Shown here: positions 3,797-49,621 of the stretch, piece by piece
Numbering within the stretch: position 1 is the stretch's first letter
How the letters are laid out: each line of letters starts with the position of its first letter
Virus record (IMG/VR): IMGVR_UViG_3300025135_000005
Coordinates: 1 to 63,406 of that record
Strand: one strand, 5' to 3'
DNA from: a virus
Length of the DNA stretch: 63,406 nt
Program-made: the position numbers and the translations under genes
Notes under the pieces: generated by a model
Seen by the model: the letters and a program-made list of their open reading frames with translations, nothing else
Databases searched by the model: none
What the model was told of the DNA's origin: nothing

Positions 3797-4654
3797 ATGT
3801 CGATTAAGAAAAACAAAAAGTCTTCTAAGAAGACAACAACCACAGTTACAACAACCATTGTAACAACCACTACTACGGTAGATAAAAATCTTGATACCCA
3901 CTATCTTCTTGTTTTAGACAGAAGCGGGTCAATGTCCTCGTGCTGGAACTCAACAATCAGCGGATTAAATGAGCAGCTTGGAACTATCAGACACCTTGAG
4001 GAGAAATATCCAGAACAAAGATATTTTGTTTCTCTTGTGGTTTTTGATACAGAAATTGATACAATCATGGAAAATAAGCCTATTTCCGAAGTTAAAGATT
4101 TCGATGGGACCGAATTCTCACCAAGAGGCGCAACGGCTTTGCATGATGCAATTGGAGTTGGAATTTCAAATCTTAAATCTTACTTGAGCAAAAAAGATAA
4201 GAATAGCGACAGCATTTCAACAGCGCTTGTTGTTATTATGACAGATGGTGAAGAAAATTCATCAAGAGAACATAACGCAACATCAATTAAAGAAATTATT
4301 GGTGAGCTTGAGAAAGGTGGAGCATGGACTTTTAGTTATATGGGAGCAAATCAAGATGCTGTATTAACTGCAAGTAGATTTGGAATTTCAGCAGGTAATT
4401 CAATTAACTACTCATCTACTTCAGCTGGGGCAGCAGCCGCTTCCAATGCCCTTTCAAGGGGTATTATGGGAAGAGCTAAGATGAGTAATGCTTCATATAC
4501 AGCATCTGCATCTTTAGGTGATGTAACACTTGAGTCAATGACTTTAAATGATATGACCAATACAGCATTTTTCTCATCAGTAGTTGAAGGGGATACAATC
4601 GGTGAAGACCTTTCTAATGTGAAGGAGGTTGAGATTGATGAAGAAAAAGCTTAA
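3797..4654 (+). CDS. von Willebrand factor A domain protein with Thr-rich leader
   Basis: 285 residues. A lysine- and threonine-rich leader (residues 1-30) precedes a VWA domain. The metal-ion-dependent adhesion site is complete: DRSGSM at 41-46, Thr113 in GATAL, and Asp150 in MTDGEEN. The C-terminal third is Ala/Ser-rich (SAGAAAASNAL) and resembles the C-terminal tail of phage and bacterial VWA proteins of tellurite-resistance type. VWA domains bind partner proteins through Mg2+. The partner is unknown and no AAA or MoxR ATPase is adjacent. No signal peptide is seen. A strong terminator follows. Confidence 0.85.
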   Translation: MSIKKNKKSSKKTTTTVTTTIVTTTTTVDKNLDTHYLLVLDRSGSMSSCWNSTISGLNEQLGTIRHLEEKYPEQRYFVSLVVFDTEIDTIMENKPISEVKDFDGTEFSPRGATALHDAIGVGISNLKSYLSKKDKNSDSISTALVVIMTDGEENSSREHNATSIKEIIGELEKGGAWTFSYMGANQDAVLTASRFGISAGNSINYSSTSAGAAAASNALSRGIMGRAKMSNASYTASASLGDVTLESMTLNDMTNTAFFSSVVEGDTIGEDLSNVKEVEIDEEKA

Positions 4655-4712
4655 TAGTAGCAATACGAAAAAGATTAGTACAACTATTTAGCCGCTACTT
4701 TTATAAATTTAG

Positions 4713-4748
4713 AAAGACCAGGAAATTAATTTCCTGGTCTTTTTTTTT
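4713..4748 (+). terminator. rho-independent terminator
   Basis: A perfect 13-bp inverted repeat (AGACCAGGAAATT and its complement, 4715-4740) is followed by eight T. It ends the unit finishing with the VWA gene and precedes the glycosyltransferase gene. Confidence 0.92.
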
Positions 4749-4825
4749 AAAAACTATTTATTTTCTTTATGGAGCTTTATATATTTATTTCAATACGATA
4801 AAACACTTTAAATAAATAAATTTTC

Positions 4826-6019
4826 ATGGAAAAGAATGCTGAAGTACAAGAAGAGGTGAAACAGCCTAATCAAAATGACATTATCGACAACGCTATCGGT
4901 AAGCTCAGAGACAACACTTTCAAAACATATTTCTATTGTCCACCAATGAATAGCCCAAGCGGGGGAATTGGTGTCCTTCTTAGAGCGGCTAAGAATCTTA
5001 GTGATAATGGTTTTGATGTAACACTTGTTTATGAACCAAGACAAGACCAAAGAGCTTCATACGAAGCTTCAACAAAAGCAAAGAAGCAAGTAGATATTTT
5101 TGAAAGATTTAATCCTATTTGGGTTGACTTTGACATCTCTAACATTAAAATAATGCCCCTTGGAGATAAAGAAATAACATTTAACGATGGAACCACACAG
5201 GCTTGTATTCCTCTTAGTGTTAATCCTGAAGATTTCTTAATCATCCCAGAAGGTTTCCCAGATGTGATGAAGAAGACAATGCAAGTTTCTTGTAAGAGAA
5301 TTATCTTCGCACAAAGCTGGTTCTATGTATTGAATGCAATGCAGCCAGGAGAGAAGTGGCAACACTTCGGAATCAGAGATGTAATCTCAGCTTCTGACGC
5401 AATTACTGAATACTTAGTATCAGTTATGCCTGGTCTTTATGTTAAAAATTTTAAGCAAGGAATCAATAGAGACATTTTCAAAGTTCCAGCAAAAGTATCT
5501 GACAAACTTCCTATGGTCGCATTCAGCGCATCAAGAGGTCCAGAAAATAAACTTAAGACCTACAACATCATCAAGACATTCTACGCATTTTATCCACACC
5601 TTAAGTGGGTTAGGTTCCAGGAGCTTGAAGGAATGGATAGAGAGCAATTTGCAGAAAGACTTTCTTCTTGCGCATTTTATTTATACACCGATGACATTGC
5701 AGGATTTGGTACAGCTCCACTTGAGGCTATGGCCTGTGGAACTCACACAATTGGCTGGGCTTCATTTGGAGGTAAAGAATATATGACCAACGAAAACGGT
5801 TTCTGGTGCAACAATGGAGATATATTCCAGACTGCAGAAATTCTTGGGCTTGCTATTGATAAGTGGCTTAACGGTGATATGGATAATGAAACCATCCAAG
5901 AAAAATATGAAGAAACTCTTAGTAAGTATACTGTTGAGGGAGAAAAAGAAAACATAATCAAACTTTTAAATGAATATAAAGATGAAAGAATCAAAGAACT
6001 TGAAAGCTTCAAGCAATAA
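4826..6019 (+). CDS. GT-B type glycosyltransferase
   Basis: 397 residues. It has a GT-B layout: an N-terminal Rossmann half with a glycine-rich loop SPSGGIGVLLRAAKNL (about 43-58), and a C-terminal half with the nucleotide-sugar site GFGTAPLEAMACGT (about 294-307) followed by GGKEYM. This is characteristic of GT4/GT1-like enzymes that transfer a sugar from a nucleotide donor. Substrate and acceptor cannot be read from sequence. The next gene, a GT-A-like transferase, overlaps its 3' end by about 38 bases, so they are probably co-translated. With gmd upstream they may decorate DNA, virion or host glycans; that is inference. Confidence 0.85.
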   Translation: MEKNAEVQEEVKQPNQNDIIDNAIGKLRDNTFKTYFYCPPMNSPSGGIGVLLRAAKNLSDNGFDVTLVYEPRQDQRASYEASTKAKKQVDIFERFNPIWVDFDISNIKIMPLGDKEITFNDGTTQACIPLSVNPEDFLIIPEGFPDVMKKTMQVSCKRIIFAQSWFYVLNAMQPGEKWQHFGIRDVISASDAITEYLVSVMPGLYVKNFKQGINRDIFKVPAKVSDKLPMVAFSASRGPENKLKTYNIIKTFYAFYPHLKWVRFQELEGMDREQFAERLSSCAFYLYTDDIAGFGTAPLEAMACGTHTIGWASFGGKEYMTNENGFWCNNGDIFQTAEILGLAIDKWLNGDMDNETIQEKYEETLSKYTVEGEKENIIKLLNEYKDERIKELESFKQ

Positions 6020-6926
6020 TATCCTTGTAGGATTATACCTTGATAAGATTAAGCACGAAGGTCAATTGGCAGAATGCCTTTTTGGTCTTGCTAATCAAAC
6101 ACATCCAGTTGATGTTGTTATTTTAGATGCTGGCCTATCAGACAAAGAGGTCGAGGCTTTGATGAAGATAGCTAAGGCACCATCTATCAAAATGATAAAG
6201 ACAAACGAGGATGGAACAGTGAAGGAGGAAATAATTGATGCTAAAAATGGTGTTGATGTAAATATCATTAAAACTGATGTTAGCAATTTCTCAAAAGTTT
6301 TCAATAGTCTTTTTAATATTGCACTTGAGGGTGGATATGAAGCTTTATCTATCGTTGAGGTTGATGATGCAGTTGGTGCCAATTGGTATAAGATTGCAAA
6401 TGTGTACATGGAAGAGAACGAAGAAGTTGGTTTTTTCTTGCCTATGATTAGAAACTTCCAAAACGGAGCTCTCACAGGACTTATGAATGAAGCTGCTTGG
6501 GCAGAGGGTATTTCTGAGGAACCAGGTAAATTCGATATGAATTTATTGCTAAGATTCAATTGCGCAAATCCACTTGGTGGAGTTTTTAGAGTTAGCAGCC
6601 TGAAAGAATATAGCGAAGATAAGGATGGTAGATTGTGTCCAATGAAAGAAAGCATTAAGATAAGTCATTACTATGAATTCTTCTTGAGAATGATATATAA
6701 TGACATTAAAATGATGACAATTCCACGAGTTGGATACGATTTCAGAGTAAACAATGTGCAAGAATTTAGTCACTCATCTTCTAAGGTTCCTAACAACCTT
6801 GTAACCCTTCCAGAGGAAAAAGGAGGTATGAGCGCTCAAGAAACTTCTTTCTGGGTTGAACTTGCCAAGAAAGAATACTTTTTTGAAGAAGATAGAAATA
6901 AGGTATATGAGCAGCAACCACAATAA
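5982..6926 (+). CDS. GT-A (family 2-like) glycosyltransferase
   Basis: About 314 residues. The beginning NILVGLYLDKIKHEGQLAEC followed by LANQTHPVDVVILDAG is the first Rossmann strand-helix of family 2-like transferases. A probable DxD metal/nucleotide-sugar motif lies in VEVDDAV near residue 126. Later segments (LGGVFRVSSL, YEFFLRMIYND) fit the acceptor half. Two in-frame ATGs, 5970 and 5982, overlap the previous gene; the later is reported and the choice is uncertain. The 3' end overlaps the sigma-factor gene by 20 bases. Substrate unknown. Confidence 0.65.
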   Translation: MKESKNLKASSNNILVGLYLDKIKHEGQLAECLFGLANQTHPVDVVILDAGLSDKEVEALMKIAKAPSIKMIKTNEDGTVKEEIIDAKNGVDVNIIKTDVSNFSKVFNSLFNIALEGGYEALSIVEVDDAVGANWYKIANVYMEENEEVGFFLPMIRNFQNGALTGLMNEAAWAEGISEEPGKFDMNLLLRFNCANPLGGVFRVSSLKEYSEDKDGRLCPMKESIKISHYYEFFLRMIYNDIKMMTIPRVGYDFRVNNVQEFSHSSSKVPNNLVTLPEEKGGMSAQETSFWVELAKKEYFFEEDRNKVYEQQPQ

Positions 6927-7812
6927 AAAGAATAAGGTAGCTAAGAGTAAAGAATATTGGACATCAGAGACCGAAGAGGCGGTCAAAGAATATTTAAAAA
7001 ACGACTTTAATTTTTATCAGTATAAAATTGATAGACACATTGAAGAAGTTGGAAAAAGTATCGAGAAGAATAGAGCCAATCCAAGGTTTAAAGTTATTGA
7101 CTTGGATGAAGATTTTATTCTTATAAATCAATCTATGGTAGACTATACCAGTAGACCAGCGATTATAAGAAAAAAAGAAGAAATCTTTAGAGGGTATATT
7201 CACAAGCCACTTACAAGGTTAGTTGAGAACATAATATTCAGCTTTAAGTTGTTTAGACAGGGTGTAGACGTTAAAACGCTGCACAACGACTGCATGTCTC
7301 ATGTTATCGAGAAATTTTGCAACTTTGACCCTGACCAGAACACTAAGTCTTTCTCATTCTACGGAACAGTAGCTAAGCACTACCTTCAAAATAAAAAAAA
7401 GGAAGTAGATAAAAGCACCAAGGTGATTCTTCCCTATGAAATTCATAGCGAAGAAGCCGATGAGCTATCTGCCTATGAGCTTGATGATGAGTCTGACCTT
7501 AATAGCTCACTCGCCCTCTTTAATCATATAACCAATCTTTTTGAGAGTGAAATAGATAGGGTAGACATTTCTAAGAATGATGCAAAAGTAGCAGAGGCAA
7601 TTGTTGATATATTTAAAAATCATGAGCTGATAGGTGTATACTCCAAGAGTTCTGTTTATAAATTAATCAAGGAGCACACCAACCTTGAAACAAAAGATAT
7701 TACATACTCGCTACATAGATTTAAAATCTTATACAAGCTTAAGAAGCAGGATTTTGTTGAAAAACACAAAGATAAGTATTACGGTTATGATGATGACGCA
7801 TTCCCTTATTAG
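6907..7812 (+). CDS. gp55-like late sigma factor
   Basis: 301 residues from the ATG that overlaps the previous stop by 20 bases; an in-frame upstream ATG at 6856 would lie deep inside the glycosyltransferase gene. Residues 138-166 match the core of T4 gp55-type sigma factors (region 2): CNFDPDQNTKSFSFYG, then AKHYLQNKKKEVDK. The C-terminal 80 residues form a helical module, and the protein ends in an acidic-aromatic tail (YYGYDDDAFPY). T4 gp55 directs RNA polymerase to late promoters together with a clamp-bound co-activator. The same role is inferred here, and a shared motif upstream of virion genes is the likely target. The next gene starts 3 bases later and looks like a relative of this C-terminus. 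Confidence 0.75.
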   Translation: MSSNHNKKNKVAKSKEYWTSETEEAVKEYLKNDFNFYQYKIDRHIEEVGKSIEKNRANPRFKVIDLDEDFILINQSMVDYTSRPAIIRKKEEIFRGYIHKPLTRLVENIIFSFKLFRQGVDVKTLHNDCMSHVIEKFCNFDPDQNTKSFSFYGTVAKHYLQNKKKEVDKSTKVILPYEIHSEEADELSAYELDDESDLNSSLALFNHITNLFESEIDRVDISKNDAKVAEAIVDIFKNHELIGVYSKSSVYKLIKEHTNLETKDITYSLHRFKILYKLKKQDFVEKHKDKYYGYDDDAFPY

Positions 7813-7815
7813 GTT

Positions 7816-8184
7816 ATGAAAAAGGAGTTGAAGAAAGAAATATTTTTATTAATACTTGAATCTATATTTGGAGATAAAACCAGGGAGATTGATAAGAAAA
7901 ATTGCATTTCTTTTTATCACTTTCTGGTAAATACTCTCTTAGATGAAATACAAGAAATTCCTCCTCACGAAGAAGAAGATATATACCTATGCAGCTCCAT
8001 CATTGAGCTATTGTGTAATTTTGACATAATGGGAGATGGTCTTGAGGATTGGGAGGGTGATATGACAATAGATTTCTTGAGAGACTTTTCTGGTCTCAGC
8101 GATACTGAATTCGACAGTACAATTATTAAATTCAGAAAAATTTACATACTCATAAAAGACGACTTCCTACTTGATTTAATGTAG
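7816..8184 (+). CDS. small acidic protein related to the C-terminus of the sigma factor
   Basis: 122 residues, strongly acidic. By eye, residues 59-118 align with the C-terminal module of the preceding sigma factor with one 4-residue gap: IIELLCNFDIMG against IVDIFKNHELIG, and KFRKIYILIKDDFL against RFKILYKLKKQDFV. It ends in a hydrophobic-acidic tail (IKDDFLLDLM). T4 encodes a small co-activator, gp33, whose hydrophobic-acidic C-terminus binds the sliding clamp. Position, size and tail make a gp33-like role plausible but unproven. It begins 3 bases after the sigma gene. Confidence 0.7.
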   Translation: MKKELKKEIFLLILESIFGDKTREIDKKNCISFYHFLVNTLLDEIQEIPPHEEEDIYLCSSIIELLCNFDIMGDGLEDWEGDMTIDFLRDFSGLSDTEFDSTIIKFRKIYILIKDDFLLDLM

Positions 8185-8198
8185 TTTTTTTCTGAAAT

Positions 8199-8207
8199 CT
8201 ATTTATA
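8199..8207 (+). promoter_or_regulatory. putative late promoter, CTATTTATA
   Basis: Copy of the recurrent [CA]TATTTAT[AG] element, 18 nt before the ATG at 8226. No TTG box is visible 20 nt upstream. Confidence 0.6.
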
Positions 8208-8225
8208 AGAACAAAAACTATTAAA

Positions 8226-8633
8226 ATGGAAAATAATACAAATAATAGCTCTGGAAGTAATTCTTCTGGAAAGAGGATGGACCCAACAAGGGAGTTGTAT
8301 GAAAAACTCATGTCCGAAGTTTATAAATATAAGCTTGAGGAGAGAGAGATGGCCCTTGATAGATACAGAAGGGCTGATGCTCAGATGGATTCAGCAGAGA
8401 GTTTTATATTAATGGGTAAGAATGCAATCGACTTTCTTAAGCAGGCGGCAAATGCTTCTGATGGTATTGAGAAGCTTGCAAAAGAAATTAAGAGCATTGT
8501 GTATAAGGAAGACTCATCATCAAATGTTGAGGTTAACTTTAACGATGCGACAAAGCGTGCGCTTATTGATGCTATTAAAGAAGAGGAGGATATGAACAAC
8601 GCCCTTCCAGATGAAGATTTAGAAGATAAGTAA
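8226..8633 (+). CDS. hypothetical helical protein, probably virion-related
   Basis: 135 residues, not recognised. A Ser/Asn-rich leader (residues 1-15) is followed by a long charged helix (about 20-55), a second helix, and an acidic tail (EEEDMNNALPDEDLEDK). It is the first gene after a late-type motif and directly precedes a run of structural genes, with its stop 2 bases from the next ATG. Size and acidity would fit an assembly chaperone or small terminase, but no motif supports either. Confidence 0.65.
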   Translation: MENNTNNSSGSNSSGKRMDPTRELYEKLMSEVYKYKLEEREMALDRYRRADAQMDSAESFILMGKNAIDFLKQAANASDGIEKLAKEIKSIVYKEDSSSNVEVNFNDATKRALIDAIKEEEDMNNALPDEDLEDK

Positions 8634-8635
8634 CA

Positions 8636-9919
8636 ATGGCACTAAAAATTCCAGTATCATCTCCGCTTACTGAAGCTCAGTCTGAATTGACCTCAAAAAT
8701 AGGCTCAATGAAGAGTCTATTGTCTCTACCGATTGAAACAAATTTAAACATTCCTAAGTCACAGCAAATTTCTACATTTGACTATTTACTCAAGGTAATG
8801 AGGGCTCTTGGGATTGAACCCGAACTAATATTCAATTTATTTTTAGATAAAGTATTTAGTGAAACTGGAACATTCTTGGATGAAAAGGTAATTACCGCTG
8901 TAGCTGATTCAATTGGTCAAAAGGGACGACAATTACCAAACGTAAATAATCCAGCCGCAACTCAAGCTCAAAAAGATGCTTATAAAATCATCAATAGAGA
9001 CTATTTATTAAATCTGGTACCAACGACATTTCTTCAAGTGTACAAGCAGCAGATGGCAAAGAATCTTACCTTGATGGTTTTTGGTCCCAAGAATGGAGGA
9101 GCAGCTAATTTTCTTAACTCTAACGCCTCAGAGAGAGATAGACTTTTTGAGGAAGCTATATGCGGAGTTAGTCTGTTCAGTTTATCAAGTGACCCAATTG
9201 TCCTGCAAGAAGATGTAGAATTCAATAGAGTGGCACTTAGGAAGCAACTTGAGAAGGGTGAGGTAATTTTCGAAGTTAGTTGTCAGGATGTCAAGGTTTT
9301 ATTGCCAGCAAATCCAGCCTATATTTTTGAGGGTGGTGGGCAATTCACATCAAGCTCTACACTTCCTCCGACCCCAGCTCAAAGTCTTAATACACTGGTT
9401 CAACATGTAAAGAACCAGGGGCAAAGAATTAATAATGAGCAAAACTCAAATTCTATTGGAAAAAGTTTCTTTGAAATATTGATAGTAAAACTTTTGAATT
9501 ACATTTCATCTCTTGTGTTTCCATTTCTTGGACCTATATTTACTGCGATTTCATCTGACTCAGCTGCCGCAGGATTGGGGCCCTCAAATGTTGCTTATAG
9601 CAATTGCGATATAATGAATTCTACGCAAGACCCAAAAGAGAAGCAAGAGTTTTTTAGAAGTCTTGCAAATGCTCTTCTAAAGGAGCTGTTGAGAATGCTT
9701 CTTGTTTTTGTAATCAAAGAATTTAAGAGATTAGTTGCAAATTATTTTACGAGAACAGCTATTGAGAAACAAAAGAGAAGGTCAGAAAAAGTAAAACAAA
9801 AATTTGCAATATTTGATAAAATTGGGGGAGCTGCAGAGCTCGCCAGTAAAGCTAAAAAATACGCAGCAGCTGTTGCAACACTTGCTGCTATACTTGGAAC
9901 TATATCAACAAATCAATAA
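8636..9919 (+). CDS. predicted virion structural protein
   Basis: 427 residues, not recognised by family. The first half is mixed alpha/beta; about residues 285-310 form a hydrophobic stretch (LLNYISSLVFPFLGPIF). A basic helix around 350-395 (RTAIEKQKRRSEKVKQKF) and an Ala-rich C-terminus (AAAVATLAAILGT) follow. It is the second gene of the run that leads to the baseplate hub protein, with 3-base gaps on both sides. A baseplate or tail-tip component is the likeliest class from position alone. Confidence 0.6.
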   Translation: MALKIPVSSPLTEAQSELTSKIGSMKSLLSLPIETNLNIPKSQQISTFDYLLKVMRALGIEPELIFNLFLDKVFSETGTFLDEKVITAVADSIGQKGRQLPNVNNPAATQAQKDAYKIINRDYLLNLVPTTFLQVYKQQMAKNLTLMVFGPKNGGAANFLNSNASERDRLFEEAICGVSLFSLSSDPIVLQEDVEFNRVALRKQLEKGEVIFEVSCQDVKVLLPANPAYIFEGGGQFTSSSTLPPTPAQSLNTLVQHVKNQGQRINNEQNSNSIGKSFFEILIVKLLNYISSLVFPFLGPIFTAISSDSAAAGLGPSNVAYSNCDIMNSTQDPKEKQEFFRSLANALLKELLRMLLVFVIKEFKRLVANYFTRTAIEKQKRRSEKVKQKFAIFDKIGGAAELASKAKKYAAAVATLAAILGTISTNQ

Positions 9920-37991: not shown

Positions 37992-38020
37992 AGCCCTTGA
38001 TATTAACAAGGGCTTTTTTT
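37992..38020 (+). terminator. rho-independent terminator
   Basis: AGCCCTTG and CAAGGGCT form an 8-bp stem with a 7-base loop, followed by seven T. It separates the virion genes from the DNA-metabolism genes. Confidence 0.92.
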
Positions 38021-38041
38021 ATATTTTATAAAAACAAAATT

Positions 38042-38581
38042 ATGATTCTTGCACTGGATGTATCTACAAGCTGTATTGGGTATGCTTTATTTAATGAGGC
38101 TGGCGATGAGCTTATGGAGCTTAACTATATAAAATTTAGAAGTAAAATTAGCTTATTTGAAAAGCGAGTTGAATTTATGAAACAAATTAAGTTTCTTGAG
38201 AATTCAGATATAAAACATATTGTAATTGAAGAACCTCTTAAGAAATTTAAGGGAAAATTCTCAAGCGCAGATACAATTGCTCTTTTAAATTTCTTTAACG
38301 GAATGATTAGTGGAACTGTTCATGAAATGTTTGGCATCGAACCTATACACTACAATGTTAACACAGCAAGAAAAGTGGCATTTCCTAATTTCAAACCCCT
38401 AAAAGACAGCGCTTCAAATAAGCATGCAATTTGGACTCTCGTTAGAGATAGAGAACCTCACATTGTTTGGAAATATGGACCAAAGACTGCAAAGCTTGTT
38501 GATGAAAATTATGACATGTGCGATTCATACGTTGTGGGATTATGCCACATTAACATAATGCAAGAGCAATTGGCTGATTAA
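38042..38581 (+). CDS. RuvC-like Holliday junction resolvase
   Basis: 179 residues from ATG 38042; an in-frame codon at 37997 lies inside the terminator and is rejected. The RNase H-like fold shows ILALDVSTSCIGYALF with the first catalytic Asp, HIVIEEPLKKF with the Glu, and a late CDSYVVGLCH with the final Asp. This arrangement is that of RuvC-type resolvases in phages. It would cleave branched DNA during recombination-dependent replication or before packaging. It leads the set with the primase and the Mre11-Rad50 fusion. Confidence 0.8.
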   Translation: MILALDVSTSCIGYALFNEAGDELMELNYIKFRSKISLFEKRVEFMKQIKFLENSDIKHIVIEEPLKKFKGKFSSADTIALLNFFNGMISGTVHEMFGIEPIHYNVNTARKVAFPNFKPLKDSASNKHAIWTLVRDREPHIVWKYGPKTAKLVDENYDMCDSYVVGLCHINIMQEQLAD

Positions 38582-38585
38582 ATTC

Positions 38586-38616
38586 TTGCTTTACTCACCA
38601 CAATGCCATATATTTG
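38586..38616 (+). promoter_or_regulatory. Bacteroidota-type promoter, TTG-N20-TATATTTG
   Basis: TTG at 38586-38588, exactly 20 bases, then TATATTTG at 38609-38616. This matches the Bacteroidota consensus (TAnnTTTG at -7, TTG near -33). It lies just ahead of the primase ATG at 38621, so the transcript would be leaderless or nearly so. Confidence 0.65.
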
Positions 38617-38620
38617 CATT

Positions 38621-39619
38621 ATGGATGGTAATAATGACTACATAATAGTTCAGACAGTTAGAGGATTTTTGGGGGAACCCAAGAGTGAGCATGACGCATT
38701 ATCCAAAAAACAATGGCAATTTAATTGTCCATCTCCTAAGTGTCGTCATGACATTGACAAATTCAATCTTGAGTACAATTCTGAAAAACACCTATTCAAA
38801 TGTTGGAAATGTGACTACCGAGGTTTTGTATATCAATTGGCTCAAGATTATGGCTCCACAACGGACTTGCAAAGAATACAGTCAATACTCCCCATAAATA
38901 AGGTTGATAGTCTTAGGAGTCAAGCTACAAGCAAACCAAAAGTTGACCATCACCTTGTAACCTGTAAGTTGCCAGAGGGATACCTTCCCCTCGGAATAAA
39001 CAGAAACACTCCATTATACAAACTCGCTTGGGATTATCTTGTCCATGAGAGAAAAGTTAGTCCGAGCTTTATTGACAAATATGAAATAGGGTACACAGAA
39101 GTTGGTCCAAGAAGATTTAGAATAATCATACCATCTAAAAATGCACTTGGAAAGATTAATTACTATGAGGCACGTTCTTATATTAAGGGCCCAAAAGTAA
39201 TTCCATACATTAAGCCTCCAGGAGAAGAAGTTCACAAGAACGATATTATATTCAATGAGTATTTTATAAACTGGGACCTTCCAGTTTTCCTTGTGGAAGG
39301 GGTGTTTGATATGTTTCGATTGCCAAATGCAATACCAGTTCTTGGAAAGGAGATTTCAGACTTATTAGTAAGTGAGTTGATGAAGCATAATTGCACTGTA
39401 ATAATATGCTTTGACCCAGATGCAATAGATAAAACAGTTGAGACATATACTAAGCTCTCTTCTTTAGGTTTGAATGTTTTTTTTGTAGATTTAAGAGACT
39501 ACGATAAAGATATTTCCAAGATTTATGAAGACCACGGAAAAGAGGAGGTTGTCAAAGCAACAAGGAATATAAAGAGGCTTGATTTGTCAATGCAAATTAG
39601 CAAAAACTTAAAAGAATAA
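38621..39619 (+). CDS. DNA primase with zinc ribbon and Toprim domain
   Basis: 332 residues from ATG 38621; an upstream in-frame ATG at 38603 lies inside the predicted promoter. The N-terminal zinc ribbon reads CPSPKCRHD, then CWKCDYRGF. The Toprim domain has the glutamate in FLVEGVFDMFRLPNAIP and the DxD in CFDPDAIDK. The protein is a short DnaG/gp61-like primase that would lay RNA primers for lagging-strand synthesis. No fused helicase domain is present. The gene is 4 bases from the Mre11-Rad50 gene. Confidence 0.88.
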   Translation: MDGNNDYIIVQTVRGFLGEPKSEHDALSKKQWQFNCPSPKCRHDIDKFNLEYNSEKHLFKCWKCDYRGFVYQLAQDYGSTTDLQRIQSILPINKVDSLRSQATSKPKVDHHLVTCKLPEGYLPLGINRNTPLYKLAWDYLVHERKVSPSFIDKYEIGYTEVGPRRFRIIIPSKNALGKINYYEARSYIKGPKVIPYIKPPGEEVHKNDIIFNEYFINWDLPVFLVEGVFDMFRLPNAIPVLGKEISDLLVSELMKHNCTVIICFDPDAIDKTVETYTKLSSLGLNVFFVDLRDYDKDISKIYEDHGKEEVVKATRNIKRLDLSMQISKNLKE

Positions 39620-39623
39620 TAAA

Positions 39624-42600
39624 ATGAAGATAGCTCACTTAGCAGACATCCAAATACGTTTTGGGTCAAGACACGATGAATACAGACAGGTTTTTGATAG
39701 ACTCTATGAAGACCTCAGGAAGCAGAAGCCAGATAGAATTTATTTGGCTGGAGACCTTGTGCATCATAAGATAAACATGTCTCCAGGTTCTTTTAATCTA
39801 TTGGCGGAGTTTTTAATAAATTTATCAAGAATTGCTCCGACTGATGTTATTCTTGGAAACCATGACCTTAATCTTCAGCAGCTTGAGCAGGGCGATGCTA
39901 TTTCGCCAATATTTTATCTTGCTAATTTAATTGAGGGAGGTGCTGAGAAAAAAGCGCATATTGTTACCAATGAAAACAAGTTAGATATAGACTATAGCCA
40001 AAACGCTGTCTATTATTATCCAGACAGTGGATTCTATAATATAAATGACGAACTTGTCTATGGCGTATATTCATGTAAGGATAATGAAATTCTAACTTTA
40101 GAAAAAAAGGAGCCAGGGAAAAAATATGTAGCGTTCTACCATGGAACTGTCTATGGCGCAAGGATGGATAATGGATATGAAGACAAGCGAGATAACCTAA
40201 TGCGCCTAAGCACATTCAGTAATTTTGACATGGTTATGCTTGGAGATATTCACGAATATCAGACATTTAGAGACGATGAAACAGTTGCTTATGCAGGGAG
40301 TTTAATACAGCAGAATTTCGGGGAGTCAATTGATAAGGGTTATCTTCTTTGGGATACCGATACCTGTGAGCACGAGAGAAAGTTTATTCTCAATGATTAT
40401 GGGTTTGCCAAAATTGACATAGCCAGAGGAGAGGATATTGAGGAGAGAGTTGATTTTGTCAAATTTAGTAGCAACAAAAAAAAGACAAAAATATATATCA
40501 TATGGGAGGATTATGAGGAAAACTACTCTGTTGAGAAAGAAAACCACATCAAGAGACTTATTAAAGATAAATATGGATGTGAAAGTGTTCGGGTCGAGTT
40601 TAAGGAGATAAGGAGAGAAATCTCAAGCGTTTCAGAAGATGATGAGACCCATCAATATACTTTCGAGGAGATATTCAAGGAATACATAAAAGAAGGAGAG
40701 TTCAACATTGAAGACGAGCTCATGAAGGAGCTCATCCAATTTTCAAGAGAAGTTGATACAGCGCTTGAGATTGATGAATCTCATTTGAATTATGTTGATG
40801 ACTGGGACTTGAATTCTATAGAAGTAAGCAATATACTCTCGTTTGACAAAAAGCCAATTATAATTGACTTTGACAAGATTACTGGGCTTACTGGTATCTT
40901 CGGAAAAAACTTCAATGGTAAATCAAATGTTGTAAAATCTATTGTATGGGGTCTATATGAAGAAATACTTGGTGGCAACCAAAGTAGTTCAAGGTATCTC
41001 GTAAATATTTATACAGATTCCGATACTGGGTATGTAATCTTAAATCTCACAATCAATGGAGAGAAATATAAGATTACAAGAAAGATTACAAGTAAGAAGG
41101 GGAAGAATACATTCAGCACCAGCTATCAAAAGTTAGTTCAAAAGTACAATGATGACGGTGAACTTGTTGGTGAAAATTGGGAAGATAAATTGTCTGATAG
41201 AAAAACTGGAGAACAAAAGGAGGTTAAGGAACTTGTTAAAGATGCAATCGGTATTTTTGATGATTTTACCAAAACTTCTTTGCAAGCTCAAGGAGGAAGT
41301 GGTGATTACATCAATCAATCACAACAGCCAAAAAACAATCTAATTAGTAGATTTCTTGGTCTTGAGACCTATAAGAATCGACATGATTATGCAAAAAAAT
41401 TCTTCAATGATGTTACCAGGAAGCAAAAGGACCTTGGCAACACAATTGAAATTGAAAATAAAATTATTGATATTGATAGTCAAATTTTAGAGAAGCAAAA
41501 AGAGCACGACTCTTTCAGGGAAGAGAAGAGTATTTCTGAGATTAAACAAAACGATGTTAATGATGAGATTATTGAACTTACAAGACAGCTTGAGAAGATT
41601 GAAGAATCTGGAATAACAAGTAAGCAAGCTGCTGAAGACCAAATAGCAATTCTTGAGAAGACAGCCTCAACCCTGGCAATAAATATTCAATCTGCAGAAG
41701 ATTGGTTATCTAAAAATTTTAAGAAAGAACTCCCATTTAGCGAGGGAGAGAGTTCTCAATCATTAAAAATAAAGCTTGACGCTGAAAACAATCAACTTCG
41801 AATGGTTGAGGCCAATCTTAAGGTTATTAATGACTTTATCACAAACAACCCTAAGAAGAAAGAAATTGCTGTTGATAAATTTCCAAAACAAATAGACGCT
41901 CTTAAAGAAAAGCTTACAGAATTAAATAATAAGCTCCCAACCTACCAAGGAAAGTGTTGTCCAACTTGTGGACATGTAGAACACACTGCAGACCCAGATA
42001 AGGAAGATGCTTGTTTGCATGATATTCAAATCACCAAGGATTTAATAGAATTCAAGGAAAAGGAAATTAAGAGTAATGATGAAATTGTGGTTCACAATAA
42101 AAAAATCGAAGATTACAAAGAAAAGATAGAAATCTCAAATCAATCTATTTCTGTAAAAAAAGAGTCGATAAAACTATTGGAGGATAAGATAAAGTTAATC
42201 GAGGGCTCTAAAGATATTATAGAACACAATAGTGAAGTTGATAGAAAAACCAAAGAGCTTAAATCTAATAAAGAAGATTTAGAGTCTACCAATAAGAAAA
42301 TTGAAGACCTCAATCAGAAGATTGTTAAGTTTGAAGAAAATAAAGACAAGATTAGGAAGAATACCGAAATTCAAGAAAAAATTGATGACAAGAGAGAGTT
42401 GCTAAAGACTTATAAATTATCCACATTCAACCTTGACAAAAATATTAATATAGCCTATGGAGAACTTAAGGTTCTTGAAAACAATAGGGGGAACTATGGA
42501 GAAAAACTTAAGGACATCAAGGATACTGAGAGATTATTTAAGAAATACTCAATATACCTACAAGCCGTTCATAGGGATGGTATTCCTGCTGCAATTATCA

Positions 42601-43070
42601 GAAGAAAACTCCCAATCATCAATAGTAAGATAAACTCTATTTTATCAGAGGTTGTTGAATTTAAGATTGAGCTTGAGATTTTGCCGAATGGAGATATTGT
42701 TGAGACATTCTTTTTTAGTGAAGATAAGTGTGATGCACTTCCTTTGGCTTCTGCATCTGGAAGTCAAAAGTTCATTGCGTCAATTGTAATTACAGAGGCG
42801 CTTCGATATATGAGCCGACTTACCAAGCCATCAATTAGAATTATTGATGAGGGATTCGGAACGCTTGACGATGAGCTTACAATGGGTGTTGTAAATATTT
42901 TGAACTACTTACGTAATAAGTATAAAAATGTTTTGATAATCACTCACAGGAATGAGATTAAAGATTTTGCGGACAGTATCATTGAAGTTGCTAAAGTAAC
43001 TGATGGCCTGGACAAAGAGGTTCTTGAGAACAATCCCAAAGCTGGATTATCTAAGATTACAATTACATAA
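39624..43070 (+). CDS. single-chain Mre11-Rad50 (gp47-gp46) fusion
   Basis: 1,148 residues. Residues 1 to about 400 are an Mre11/SbcD-type nuclease: LADIQI 6-11, AGDLVHHK 42-49, GNHD 78-81, FYHGT 171-175 and GDIH 207-210. Residues about 400-1148 are Rad50/SbcC: Walker A GKNFNGKS 427-434, long coiled coils around the zinc hook CPTC 779-782, signature ASGSQKF near 1044, and Walker B IIDEGFGTLDDE near 1073-1085. T4 encodes these as separate subunits, gp47 and gp46, that process DNA ends for recombination-dependent replication. The reading frame runs continuously through the junction. Motif I has Gln10 where family members have His. The gene overlaps the next by one base. Confidence 0.93.
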   Translation: MKIAHLADIQIRFGSRHDEYRQVFDRLYEDLRKQKPDRIYLAGDLVHHKINMSPGSFNLLAEFLINLSRIAPTDVILGNHDLNLQQLEQGDAISPIFYLANLIEGGAEKKAHIVTNENKLDIDYSQNAVYYYPDSGFYNINDELVYGVYSCKDNEILTLEKKEPGKKYVAFYHGTVYGARMDNGYEDKRDNLMRLSTFSNFDMVMLGDIHEYQTFRDDETVAYAGSLIQQNFGESIDKGYLLWDTDTCEHERKFILNDYGFAKIDIARGEDIEERVDFVKFSSNKKKTKIYIIWEDYEENYSVEKENHIKRLIKDKYGCESVRVEFKEIRREISSVSEDDETHQYTFEEIFKEYIKEGEFNIEDELMKELIQFSREVDTALEIDESHLNYVDDWDLNSIEVSNILSFDKKPIIIDFDKITGLTGIFGKNFNGKSNVVKSIVWGLYEEILGGNQSSSRYLVNIYTDSDTGYVILNLTINGEKYKITRKITSKKGKNTFSTSYQKLVQKYNDDGELVGENWEDKLSDRKTGEQKEVKELVKDAIGIFDDFTKTSLQAQGGSGDYINQSQQPKNNLISRFLGLETYKNRHDYAKKFFNDVTRKQKDLGNTIEIENKIIDIDSQILEKQKEHDSFREEKSISEIKQNDVNDEIIELTRQLEKIEESGITSKQAAEDQIAILEKTASTLAINIQSAEDWLSKNFKKELPFSEGESSQSLKIKLDAENNQLRMVEANLKVINDFITNNPKKKEIAVDKFPKQIDALKEKLTELNNKLPTYQGKCCPTCGHVEHTADPDKEDACLHDIQITKDLIEFKEKEIKSNDEIVVHNKKIEDYKEKIEISNQSISVKKESIKLLEDKIKLIEGSKDIIEHNSEVDRKTKELKSNKEDLESTNKKIEDLNQKIVKFEENKDKIRKNTEIQEKIDDKRELLKTYKLSTFNLDKNINIAYGELKVLENNRGNYGEKLKDIKDTERLFKKYSIYLQAVHRDGIPAAIIRRKLPIINSKINSILSEVVEFKIELEILPNGDIVETFFFSEDKCDALPLASASGSQKFIASIVITEALRYMSRLTKPSIRIIDEGFGTLDDELTMGVVNILNYLRNKYKNVLIITHRNEIKDFADSIIEVAKVTDGLDKEVLENNPKAGLSKITIT

Positions 43071-43588
43071 TGGCAAATAACGAGAATAAATTACAGAATT
43101 CAGAAAGGAGTATTGAGGAAATCGCCAGAGAGGCGATGGATGCAATTAAGAAATCTGAAATTGACGAGAGAAATCGTCAGGAGAGGGATTTTGCAGAGGA
43201 GGCTCAGGCCAGAGAAGCCGCACTTAAGGAGGAAGTAAATCAAAAGATAAAGAGGAAACTTAGGCGACTTGAGAAAGAGGAGTCTAAAAAGCCTGTGGAG
43301 GATTTTCAGGACCCTCGACTAATGGTTAATTGGAGCAATCCAGATAAGTCAGGAATAGTCTATGAAGGTCGCCACAATGACAAGTATACCTTTAGAATAA
43401 AAAGGGGGCTTAATTTATATCACCTTTATGTTGAAGATAAAAAGCTTATGGTTGATGCATGGCAAAGCTCAACATGTACATCCGTTGATTTATTTACACT
43501 AAAAGAGAAAGCGGATAAAATTTTAAAAGAGGCAATATCAAGAGAGGCTAAACTCAAAAAGAGTGAGGAGGCGAAGAAGGGTCTTTAG
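43070..43588 (+). CDS. coiled-coil hypothetical protein
   Basis: 172 residues, unrecognised. Residues 10-75 form a highly charged helix (EEAQAREAALKEEVNQKIKR). A small beta domain follows (YEGRHNDKYTFRIKRGLNLY, HLYVEDKKLM) and then a second charged helix. It is coupled to the Mre11-Rad50 gene by a one-base overlap, so an accessory role in recombination is possible. The 3' end overlaps the convergent gene by 35 bases. Confidence 0.65.
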   Translation: MANNENKLQNSERSIEEIAREAMDAIKKSEIDERNRQERDFAEEAQAREAALKEEVNQKIKRKLRRLEKEESKKPVEDFQDPRLMVNWSNPDKSGIVYEGRHNDKYTFRIKRGLNLYHLYVEDKKLMVDAWQSSTCTSVDLFTLKEKADKILKEAISREAKLKKSEEAKKGL

Positions 43589-44681: not shown

Positions 44682-45614
44682 GTGGATAAAGATTTAAACT
44701 ACATATCGCCCAATAATAAATATGCTGATAAAATACATATTAGCTTTAGCGAGTTTAGTTTATTTAATCAATGCGGCCACAAGCACTTGGTTGAGAAACA
44801 TTTAAAGCTAACAGAGTCTGCAATGACTGTTCATCTTTTTTTTGGTAATGCAATACATGCTGCCATTGAAAAGTCACTTAAAGATGCAATTGGCCTAAAT
44901 AGGAGGATAGATTTCTTCAAGAGAACATTTGCCAAGGATATGCTTGACCACATGAGAGATGAGCCAGGATTTCAACAGGAGCTTGATGATTACCTAAAGC
45001 AAGGAGAGGAGTTGTTGAATATCCTCTCAATAGAGGATATATTTAGTAAGTATAAGATAATATCTGTTGAGGAGCCCTTATTTGAACATATTCATGGGGA
45101 ATTTTACTTCAAGGGGTTTATTGACCTTGTGGCTCAGAATAGAGAAAGTGGCAAATATGTAATTATTGACTGGAAGACTTCTGGGCAAAAATGGAACATC
45201 AAAAAAAAGCTTGTTGATGACACATTTATTTGTCAAATGAGATTCTATAAATATTTCTGGTCGAGAAAGAATAATATTTCTCTGGATAAAATAAGTTGTG
45301 AATATATAGTTCTTAATAGACTTAAGGATAAAAAAAAATCAGACTCTGGCTGTGGTGGAATACAGTATGTAGAAGTTAACTCAACAAATGAAGAAATATA
45401 TGATTCACTACAAAAATTAGCAGATACTATAGAGAGCATTCACATAAACAAGAGATTTCCTAAAGTTAAACATTTTGGAAATGAATTTCTTGGATGTATG
45501 TTTTGTAAATTTAAAGGAGGGAAACACCCTTTGTGTAATAATAATAAAAACCAAGACAAGCAGTTGCTGCTTGAAAATAAAAACAAAAGTAATGGAAAAC
45601 AAAAAGTTAATTAA
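44682..45614 (+). CDS. PD-(D/E)XK nuclease, RecB/Cas4-like, with four cysteines
   Basis: 310 residues from a GTG start, the only plausible start because an in-frame stop lies five codons upstream. The PD-(D/E)XK core shows GNAIHAAIE (His59), FKGFIDLV with Asp148, and IIDWKTS with Asp163 and Lys165. Cys31 near the N-terminus and Cys272, Cys275 and Cys285 near the C-terminus match the order, though not the exact spacing, of the iron-sulphur cysteines of Cas4 and AddB. It would be a DNA exonuclease in recombination or host DNA degradation. The 3' end overlaps the next gene by 23 bases. Confidence 0.82.
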   Translation: MDKDLNYISPNNKYADKIHISFSEFSLFNQCGHKHLVEKHLKLTESAMTVHLFFGNAIHAAIEKSLKDAIGLNRRIDFFKRTFAKDMLDHMRDEPGFQQELDDYLKQGEELLNILSIEDIFSKYKIISVEEPLFEHIHGEFYFKGFIDLVAQNRESGKYVIIDWKTSGQKWNIKKKLVDDTFICQMRFYKYFWSRKNNISLDKISCEYIVLNRLKDKKKSDSGCGGIQYVEVNSTNEEIYDSLQKLADTIESIHINKRFPKVKHFGNEFLGCMFCKFKGGKHPLCNNNKNQDKQLLLENKNKSNGKQKVN

Positions 45615-47689: not shown

Positions 47690-49621
47690 ATGGCAAAGAA
47701 GAAAGAAGTAACACCAGTTAAGCTAAGGAAATTAAGGACAAATTATGAACTTAGATTCGACTATCTACCTATCTTAACTACATATATCAAAACGCTCCCA
47801 AAAGAACATAGAAGCGTCAGAGTTGACAATGTGCTTGATGTTAATGGTGGAACAAGGGATGAGTGGGTTAGAATAATACGGGAAGTTCAGGTGGGAAATA
47901 TTATATCCTTCCTTGTAGATAATTCAATTCCGTTTGTATTTGAAAACCTCCTTCCAGAAGAGTTGGATAGTCTCAGAAGAGATTACGTAGAAAGACAAAA
48001 GAGAGTGGCCGAGGCACTTAAATCAAAAGAGGCAGCACTCACACTTGATGATATGGATTTTAGTTTCATGAAAATACAGCCATATGATTACCAGAAGCAG
48101 GCTGTTAAATTTTTTGAAATAAATCAAGGCAAAGCTATTCTTGGTGACCAACCAGGAGTGGGAAAGACATTGCCCCCAATTGCATATGCAGCTAAAAATA
48201 GATTGAAGACACTTGTAATATGCCCTGCCTCACTTAAATTAAACTGGAGAAAAGAAGTTGTTAATTTTAGTAATGAAAAAGCTCACGTATTTAAGTACAC
48301 TCCAAGTAAAAGGAGTAAAAATAAGAATTACAGCAAAGACGAGAGTTTGTTTCACATCATAAATTATGAATCAATACAGAGCTACATCAAGCTTGAATAT
48401 AAGCATAAGTGTGGTGGGAATGTTATTGTGCCTGGAAAAGGTACACAAAAATGTGGAACCGAGATAATTGACCTCAACAAGAAGCATAAGAAATGTGAGA
48501 TGTGTAAGAACACAAATTCATTCAAGACAAGAATTAATGGTCTTGTATACATACAAGATAAGGATGGTAGTGTTCTTGACCCAGAAGACTATGATATGAT
48601 TGTTATTGATGAGTTTCATAGAATTAAAAGTGTTAAGACCGATTGGACCCAAATTATCAAGAAAGCATTTAGAGATACTGTTGACAAGAGGATTTTAATA
48701 TCTGGAACCGCAATTAAAAGTAGGCCCATGGAATTCTTCTCAGGACTTAATTTTATGGACCCAGATATGTGGAATTCGAGTCATGACTTTGGACTTAGGT
48801 ACTGTGCCGCATATGAAACTAATTTTGGCTGGGATTATAGTGGCGCTTCTAATCTTGAAGAATTATTTACAAGAATATCTCCTTATTTCCTTAGGAGACT
48901 TAAAAAAGATGTACTAAGCCAACTTCCAGATAAAACTTATACAGAGATTGAAATTGAACTTACTCCAACAGAGAGGAAAGAATATGAAAAACTTCTCAAG
49001 GAGATGAAGAAGGTAGTTGGAGAAGGAGGCACCGAAGAAGAGAAGGAGCAGTCATATCTTGAGAAAATACACAAGCTAAAGCAGTTTACTGGAAATGTGA
49101 AACTCAATAGAATGATTAGTGATGGTATAATTGACGACATATCAAGTAATTCAGAAAAAATTGTTGTCATGTCCGATTATCAAATACTGGCAGAAACACT
49201 CTACAAAGAATATAGCGATAGGGCTGTTATTCACACTGGAAGCATGAATCAAGAAGAAAAACAATCTTCTGTCGATAAGTTCCAGGAAGATAAAAATATT
49301 TGCCTATTCTCTGGTATGATTGGGGCCTCAGGAGTTGGAATTACTCTTACAGAGGCATCTAAGCTTATATTTCTTGGATTTGCATGGACTCCAGCTGATA
49401 TGGAGCAGGCAGAGGATAGAATTCACAGGGCTACAACTACACATGACAATATCCAGATAATTCAATACATTTGTGTTGATACAATTGACGAAGACATTAA
49501 CGAATTACTTAAGGAAAAGTCACAAGTTGTAAGCAAGGTTCTTGATAATAAAGATTTTAGTAAAAGGATTAATGTTTCTAATGAAAGCATTTTCAAAAGT
49601 TTATTAGAAAGATTGAGATAG
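47690..49621 (+). CDS. SNF2-family (SMARCAL1/UvsW-like) helicase with inserted zinc ribbon
   Basis: 643 residues. Helicase motifs are in order: Q-like YDYQKQAV 132-139, Walker A GDQPGVGKT 152-160 (relatives have DEMGLGKT), CPASLKLNW (Ia), DEFH 307-310 (II) and SGTAI (III). The second lobe has ASGVGITLTEASKLIF and EQAEDRIHR. Between Ia and II lies a cysteine cluster, C241, C255, C269 and C272, that looks like a zinc ribbon. SMARCAL1-like enzymes anneal or remodel forks, and T4 UvsW does branch migration. An analogous role is inferred. It ends the DNA-metabolism block. Confidence 0.88.
   Translation: MAKKKEVTPVKLRKLRTNYELRFDYLPILTTYIKTLPKEHRSVRVDNVLDVNGGTRDEWVRIIREVQVGNIISFLVDNSIPFVFENLLPEELDSLRRDYVERQKRVAEALKSKEAALTLDDMDFSFMKIQPYDYQKQAVKFFEINQGKAILGDQPGVGKTLPPIAYAAKNRLKTLVICPASLKLNWRKEVVNFSNEKAHVFKYTPSKRSKNKNYSKDESLFHIINYESIQSYIKLEYKHKCGGNVIVPGKGTQKCGTEIIDLNKKHKKCEMCKNTNSFKTRINGLVYIQDKDGSVLDPEDYDMIVIDEFHRIKSVKTDWTQIIKKAFRDTVDKRILISGTAIKSRPMEFFSGLNFMDPDMWNSSHDFGLRYCAAYETNFGWDYSGASNLEELFTRISPYFLRRLKKDVLSQLPDKTYTEIEIELTPTERKEYEKLLKEMKKVVGEGGTEEEKEQSYLEKIHKLKQFTGNVKLNRMISDGIIDDISSNSEKIVVMSDYQILAETLYKEYSDRAVIHTGSMNQEEKQSSVDKFQEDKNICLFSGMIGASGVGITLTEASKLIFLGFAWTPADMEQAEDRIHRATTTHDNIQIIQYICVDTIDEDINELLKEKSQVVSKVLDNKDFSKRINVSNESIFKSLLERLR

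Follow-up and report, generated by a model that had tools for sequence, protein, structure and literature searches.

A probable single-chain Mre11-Rad50 nuclease/ATPase of a tailed phage, and relatives in which the gene is split again inside the nuclease domain

Fusions of the Mre11 nuclease and the Rad50 ATPase into one polypeptide have been described in Mimivirus R555, Bacillus phage 0305phi8-36, plasmids, bacteria and eukaryotes; the same survey found R555-like sequences to be abundant in aquatic metagenomes and assigned them to viruses, considered the length of the linker to fit the geometry of the Thermotoga maritima proteins, and concluded that the fusions overall do not form one clade (Yoshida et al., 2011; PMC3175470). 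Here we analyze an open reading frame (ORF) of this kind in a viral stretch of 63,406 nucleotides, IMG/VR record IMGVR_UViG_3300025135_000005 (the whole stretch is referred to as the window). A preliminary description, made from the DNA alone, knew of no well-described phage system with this architecture, which the 2011 account of viral fusions refutes. In addition, cultured Microcystis phage Mel-JY01 and Tenacibaculum phages pT24 and PTm1 have single ORFs of the fused kind in GenBank, annotated merely as AAA protein, DNA repair or exonuclease, and a scan of IMG/VR yielded at least 569 relatives, the fusion itself being checked in part of them. Mre11-Rad50 fusions are both described and common among environmental phages, and the window protein therefore belongs to an already known kind, as a further example of the R555-like viral fusions. 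Its detection supports the suggestion of 2011 that R555-like metagenomic genes are largely those of phages, to which many full-length examples are now added.

Mimivirus R555 and the window protein share the order of Mre11 first and Rad50 second in one chain, a cap and helix-loop-helix region, Asp in the place of His206 and a viral origin, but the window protein is that of a tailed phage, is shorter (1148 versus 1351 residues) and also carries Gln in the place of His10. With pT24, PTm1 and Mel-JY01 it shares both domains in one ORF and a GDxH motif, and with pT24 and PTm1 also DxQ, although Mel-JY01 is distant (approximately 26% identity) and pT24 and PTm1 are partial sequence matches. The T4 gp47/gp46 and Herelleviridae pairs combine the same two activities and motifs and occupy a similar place in replication/recombination blocks, whereas they are encoded by two genes, have GHxH and fall on the opposite side of the tree; E. 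coli SbcD/SbcC, a homologous nuclease and ATPase whose solved structures match the AlphaFold2 (AF2) model of the window protein, are likewise two genes with GHxH, and distant. Trees inferred from the N and C parts, using five separate Mre11/Rad50 as outgroup and leaving out Mimivirus R555, agree on the main groups and place all fused and re-split forms (see below) on one side of the outgroup (support 87/99 for the N part and 95/91 for the C part). This suggests a single origin, for this viral set only, given the small outgroup and the finding of 2011 that fusions overall are not one clade; Bacillus phage 0305phi8-36 was left out of the comparisons, and none of the plasmid fusions of that paper was recovered by tblastn.

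The features of the fused ORF are as follows (residue numbers refer to its translation).

39624..43070, + strand: fused Mre11-Rad50 ORF, 1148 residues in a single frame, with Pfam, PHROGs and PDB matches of both kinds
39624..40268, + strand: Mre11 phosphoesterase core, residues 1-215 (Metallophos 1-212; alignment with T4 gp47 and E. coli SbcD)
39651..39653, + strand: Q10, replacing metal-ligand His10 of Pyrococcus furiosus Mre11 in the window subclade (16 Q and 41 H among fused sequences)
40245..40247, + strand: D208, replacing metal-ligand His206 of P. furiosus Mre11 (D in 58/58 fused sequences)
40266..40304, + strand: loop 215-227, intact in the window, the mobile-DNA insertion site in split relatives (L008, L009, L014, L070, L101)
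40269..40613, + strand: Mre11 capping domain, residues ~216-330 (T. maritima Mre11 alignment 15-376; AF2 model)
40614..40808, + strand: junction, with disordered residues 331-343, helices 347-357 and 364-380, then a linker into Rad50 (AF2 model)
40800..41423, + strand: Rad50 N-terminal head half, residues 393-600 (AAA_23; Walker A 427-434 at 40902-40925)
41424..42503, + strand: Rad50 coiled coil (AF2 secondary structure; zinc hook CPTC 779-782 at 41958-41969)
42504..43067, + strand: Rad50 C-terminal head half (SbcC_Walker_B, SMC_N; signature 1043-1050 at 42750-42773, Walker B 1071-1079 at 42834-42860)

The frame is uninterrupted from ATG to stop. Pfam assigns Metallophos to residues 1-212 (E 1.2e-11), AAA_23 to 398-632 and SbcC_Walker_B to 1043-1093, together with SMC_N, the Rad50/SMC ATPase halves covering 398-632 and 1043-1128, and the same protein matches both the SbcD-like phrog_100 (2.7e-26) and the SbcC-like phrog_77 (2.5e-50). 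A sequence search of the PDB aligned residues 15-376 with nearly the entire T. maritima Mre11 and returned archaeal Mre11 on the N part and Rad50 on the C part (approximately 1000-1125). The AF2 monomer model (mean predicted local distance difference test, pLDDT, 81) contains the phosphoesterase core, cap, helices, Rad50 head and coiled coil in the expected order, including the capping-domain strands and the two helices that an Mre11 cap and a Rad50-binding helix-loop-helix require. Searched with Foldseek, this model gave Chaetomium Rad50 as the top match, followed by other SMC heads and the Mre11/SbcD of T. maritima, E. coli and Staphylococcus aureus; against viral models, the best matches were long proteins of the giant viruses Tupanvirus, Harvfovirus, Yasminevirus and Catovirus, and full-length proteins of PTm1 and pT24, the Tenacibaculum phages, ranked high as well.

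The Rad50 half has its Walker A, signature and Walker B motifs in two head halves divided by the coiled coil, with the zinc hook CPTC at 779-782. Across 58 distinct fused sequences, the GK of Walker A and the DE of Walker B are invariant and the SG of the ABC signature is kept in 57; most have the CxxC hook, the first Cys being replaced in 14 of the 58 and the second present in all. The preliminary description had placed all Mre11 and all Rad50 motifs in one frame. The single frame stands, as do the Rad50 positions (GKNFNGKS at 427, CPTC at 779, SASGSQKF at 1043, IIDEGFG at 1073), while two of the Mre11 metal ligands proved to be replaced. Its remark that a fused chain fixes stoichiometry adds little, because separate Mre11 and Rad50 already assemble 2:2, and the change in ATP-to-nuclease coupling that it proposed is conjectural. 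We consider it probable that the window encodes a tailed-phage nuclease/ATPase of the R555-type family, with Mre11 and Rad50 (SbcD-SbcC) in a single chain, that acts in end resection and most likely forms an M2R2 complex from two chains. In one relative (L040:2740-6522), the fused protein is longer by approximately 100 residues; an intein was ruled out there, as the alignment places the extra segments in the coiled coil on either side of the hook.

The window is a metagenomic virus contig, and the single frame could in principle stem from an assembly or sequencing error that joined two separate genes. A second IMG/VR contig (L010), possibly originating from the same sample, shares 17,444 bp around the fused gene with the window at 100% identity, and the stronger argument comes from 57 other distinct relatives, approximately 24% to 75% identical, that have the same single frame. 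Codon-position composition shows no shift at the Mre11/Rad50 junction. On these grounds an artefact was rejected, and we regard it as barely credible. The nonsynonymous substitution rate (dN) is low across both halves and the junction, with the synonymous rate (dS) mostly saturated, and both halves are under purifying selection. A scan of genome contigs matched a single short contig of a metagenome-assembled genome, probably viral.

A more complicated picture is evident in the nuclease center. The ligand positions in the window are D8, Q10, D44, N79, H173, D208 and H210, so that substitutions affect two of the seven canonical metal ligands of Mre11 (Q10 for His10 of P. furiosus, and D208 for His206): the GD and GNHD phosphoesterase motifs, H173 and H210 are retained, while DxH has become DxQ and GHxH has become GDxH. 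The latter change occurs in all 58 fused sequences and in five split relatives, whereas His is kept at this position in the separate Mre11 of T4, S-RIM4, Listeria WIL-1, Bacillus BSP38 and E. coli; an Asp there has already been noted for Mimivirus R555 (PMC3175470). DxQ is restricted to 16 of 57 fused sequences, including the window subclade and PTm1, and is likewise found in pT24. These replacements could mean that the nuclease half has become a DNA-end sensor, or a phosphodiesterase of other specificity, with Rad50 serving to tether, given that His206 is Asp in every fused sequence and His10 is Gln in the window subclade. We find this unlikely: Asp and Gln are still able to bind metals, most of the fused family retains DxH, the core is strongly constrained, and D44, N79, H173, H210 and the catalytic H80 are invariant or nearly so across the fused sequences. 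Because of this last observation, we favor an active enzyme that handles metals differently; the metal preference or rate of such a ligand-variant center may differ.

Outside the coiled coil, no part of the protein changes faster than the junction (0.48-0.62 identity with near relatives), and in the AF2 model its helices 347-357 and 364-380 sit in the place of the Mre11 helix-loop-helix. The low-confidence, fast-changing residues 331-343 ahead of these helices would suit a precursor processed into separate Mre11 and Rad50 once translated, but the junction alignment shows no conserved cleavage motif and the linker length is one that suits a working fusion (PMC3175470), leaving this scenario quite improbable. 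The data show the domains, motifs, conservation, selection and genomic setting of the single-chain protein; its assembly, activity, ATP gating and role in replication can be proposed from the named families. Two fused chains would pair through the Mre11 surfaces, the Rad50 heads and the zinc hook, most likely giving M2R2 from two chains and not four, and the short variable linker after the cap and helix-loop-helix would reach from the C terminus of Mre11 to the N terminus of Rad50 without altering how the subunits are arranged. ATP binding would close the Rad50 heads, which would then hold DNA and cover the nuclease; hydrolysis would expose DNA ends to the di-metal nuclease, and breaks, hairpins or blocked ends could be resected for recombination-dependent replication, as T4 gp46/47 do.

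Several points weigh against this interpretation. With two of seven metal ligands changed, nuclease activity cannot be assumed, and the AF2 model is that of a monomer only, with a predicted template modelling score (pTM) of 0.46, a value held low by the coiled coil. Since the window covers only a fragment, a separate pair could lie elsewhere in the genome, and one 735-kb record (W05) has the fused gene together with additional Rad50-like and SbcD-like matches. In favor of the interpretation, no separate Mre11/Rad50 pair beside the fused gene was found in 12 of the 13 large relatives searched; a second SbcD-like match in contig G008 was rejected as a partner, being a different small phosphoesterase.

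A less expected, and more novel, lead than the fusion itself is that the gene is split again in relatives. We found 17 distinct split sequences broken at one loop just past D208 and H210, directly after the DIHxxQ segment and before the next conserved strand (GSLIQQ). Beyond the five loci described next, a tail-containing query found many more split contigs, and the share of these should not be read as the frequency of splitting. Five split loci in separate parts of the tree were compared (L008:7001-11401, L009:7001-10979, L014:3973-9799, L070:4986-9504 and L101:2944-7166). Their N halves gain a conserved extra tail, e.g., DRWEEKLIDEDELEDYEASGWEILK, EKEETMIIDESELDKYKKEGWEVVGYEE or KVSEYEVEEMVVEEDELEKYLNSGWKLDENLDDY, and their C halves open with a new head (MGKKIRIRRK, MGRKIKIKRK, MSDDKYRVKR), while all family-typical ligands are kept in the five split N halves examined. 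Between the halves lie ORFs with weak PvuRts1I/DUF559-like PD-(D/E)XK matches (L009, L014, L070), an N6/N4 methylase as well (L014), a TnsA-like endonuclease match (L101) or an ORF whose sole match, a weak one, is to a prohead protease (L008). Three of the inserts start with a prohead-protease-like fragment (NLNGR.YS...; L008:8038-8523, L009:7719-8102, L014:4700-5176), looking as if mobile DNA had carried a piece of another phage gene.

Introns and inteins were considered for these inserts and rejected. In L008 and L009, Rfam gave no group I or II intron match at its gathering threshold, and the insert of L009, which has 535 nt and is mostly coding, is apparently too short for one. The N tail, of approximately 26 residues, starts with Asp or Glu and not with the Cys or Ser of an intein, stops break the frame, and no Pfam intein match occurred among the intervening ORFs scanned.

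Other arrangements at the same site are also seen. A stable three-gene form (L111-L114, L117, L119-L125, L131, L133 and L135; approximately 4419-8660 in most loci) consists of the Mre11 N half, an unrelated conserved ORF of approximately 300 residues and the C half, with coding overlaps of a few bases at both joints; for the intervening ORF, Pfam gives only a sub-threshold DUF354 match, and by eye it resembles GT9-type glycosyltransferases. The tailed halves overlap with no gene between them in L142:4401-7738, L149:4428-7704 and L162:4425-7738. In L147:2420-5725, L151:4443-7742 and L152:4410-5360, tail and head together form an in-frame insert within the Mre11 domain, like the scar of a rejoined split. 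An AF2 model of the L147 N part (pTM 0.83) shows this insert as strand-helix-strand-strand, at a confidence (approximately 62-76) below that of the remainder. In L152:5353-8303 and L129:5175-7744, the long C-terminal part is split again after the Mre11 cap, with small ORFs between.

A quick tree of 77 sequences requires six changes between the fused and split states, a count that should be interpreted with caution given several long branches and support from the Shimodaira-Hasegawa-like approximate likelihood ratio test (SH-aLRT) only. Fused L003 and split L014 are neighbors in this tree and form a pair of empty and occupied sites with 36 bases replaced, their DNA being 85% identical before the site and 93% after. 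In split pairs, the halves have dN/dS values of about 0.03-0.13 and the N tails values of 0.07-0.22, the latter being rough because the tails are short; both halves and N tails therefore look translated and constrained. As the naturally re-split relatives show, the family can do without a single chain. We lean towards a scenario in which the viral fusions are a distinct catalytic variant (GDxH, partly DxQ) whose gene has recurrently been cut inside the nuclease domain by mobile endonuclease elements, leaving matching tails, a strand-helix-strand element for the N half and one strand for the C half, through which the halves would rejoin in trans; later, some lineages would have shed the endonuclease, exchanged it for a different gene between the halves, or fused the halves anew with the tails as a scar.

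No paper on a split Mre11-Rad50 was found in the literature searched. The closest precedent for the re-split forms, by analogy, is phage Aeh1, where mobE has split nrdA and the enzyme still works (PMC2988022; PMC3653736). It resembles the re-split relatives only, in the endonuclease gene within an enzyme gene, the two polypeptides to be reassembled and the tail of the N half, and differs in the enzyme and the class of endonuclease, the window's own gene being intact. The open frame of Aeh1 NrdA-a ends in MLFKVKKSEVDKFKLMVATDQYKSLRY, loosely similar to the N-tail pattern of split Mre11. Crona and others reportedly showed in 2011 that the tails in Aeh1 serve as interaction domains. The series of intact, split, three-gene and rejoined forms could be used to ask how far the nuclease domain depends on an unbroken chain, and whether a broken enzyme stays functional thanks to glue contributed by mobile elements. 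A one-chain Mre11-Rad50 also offers a simple experimental handle, with a fixed 1:1 composition and both sites mutable in one gene.

In the window, the fused gene lies in a replication/recombination block comparable with the surroundings of T4 46/47.

37997..38581, + strand: RuvC-like resolvase, upstream (phrog_159, 2.3e-12; the true start is probably an internal ATG)
38603..39619, + strand: DNA primase, directly upstream (phrog_47, 9.5e-36)
44682..45614, + strand: PD-(D/E)XK (PDDEXK_1) exonuclease, downstream (PDDEXK_1, 5.1e-21; phrog_1218)
47690..49621, + strand: SNF2-type helicase, downstream (SNF2-rel_dom, 1e-33; phrog_62, 6e-100)

A gene similar to the RuvC-like resolvase also occurs near the fused gene in L059, and for the SNF2-type helicase a T4 UvsW-like role is our guess. 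The setting bears on the scenario that the Rad50 half is part of a Lamassu-like (LmuB) conflict system and not of replication or recombination, as the PADLOC LmuB model covers residues 394-1130 at 7e-23. We give this scenario next to no credence: the match can be regarded as generic, because LmuB is itself Rad50-like and only the SMC part is covered, the SbcC family of PHROGs matches more strongly, the Rad50 half is fused to an Mre11 domain, and the identified neighbors are replication/recombination genes. An ORF at 43070-43588, without any family match, overlaps the end of the fused gene (TAATG), and ORFs of similar size come after the fused gene in many near relatives. Farther away, amid tail and baseplate genes, an ORF at 15981-16898 matches HNH-endonuclease and DNA-binding families and is perhaps a free-standing homing endonuclease of this phage.

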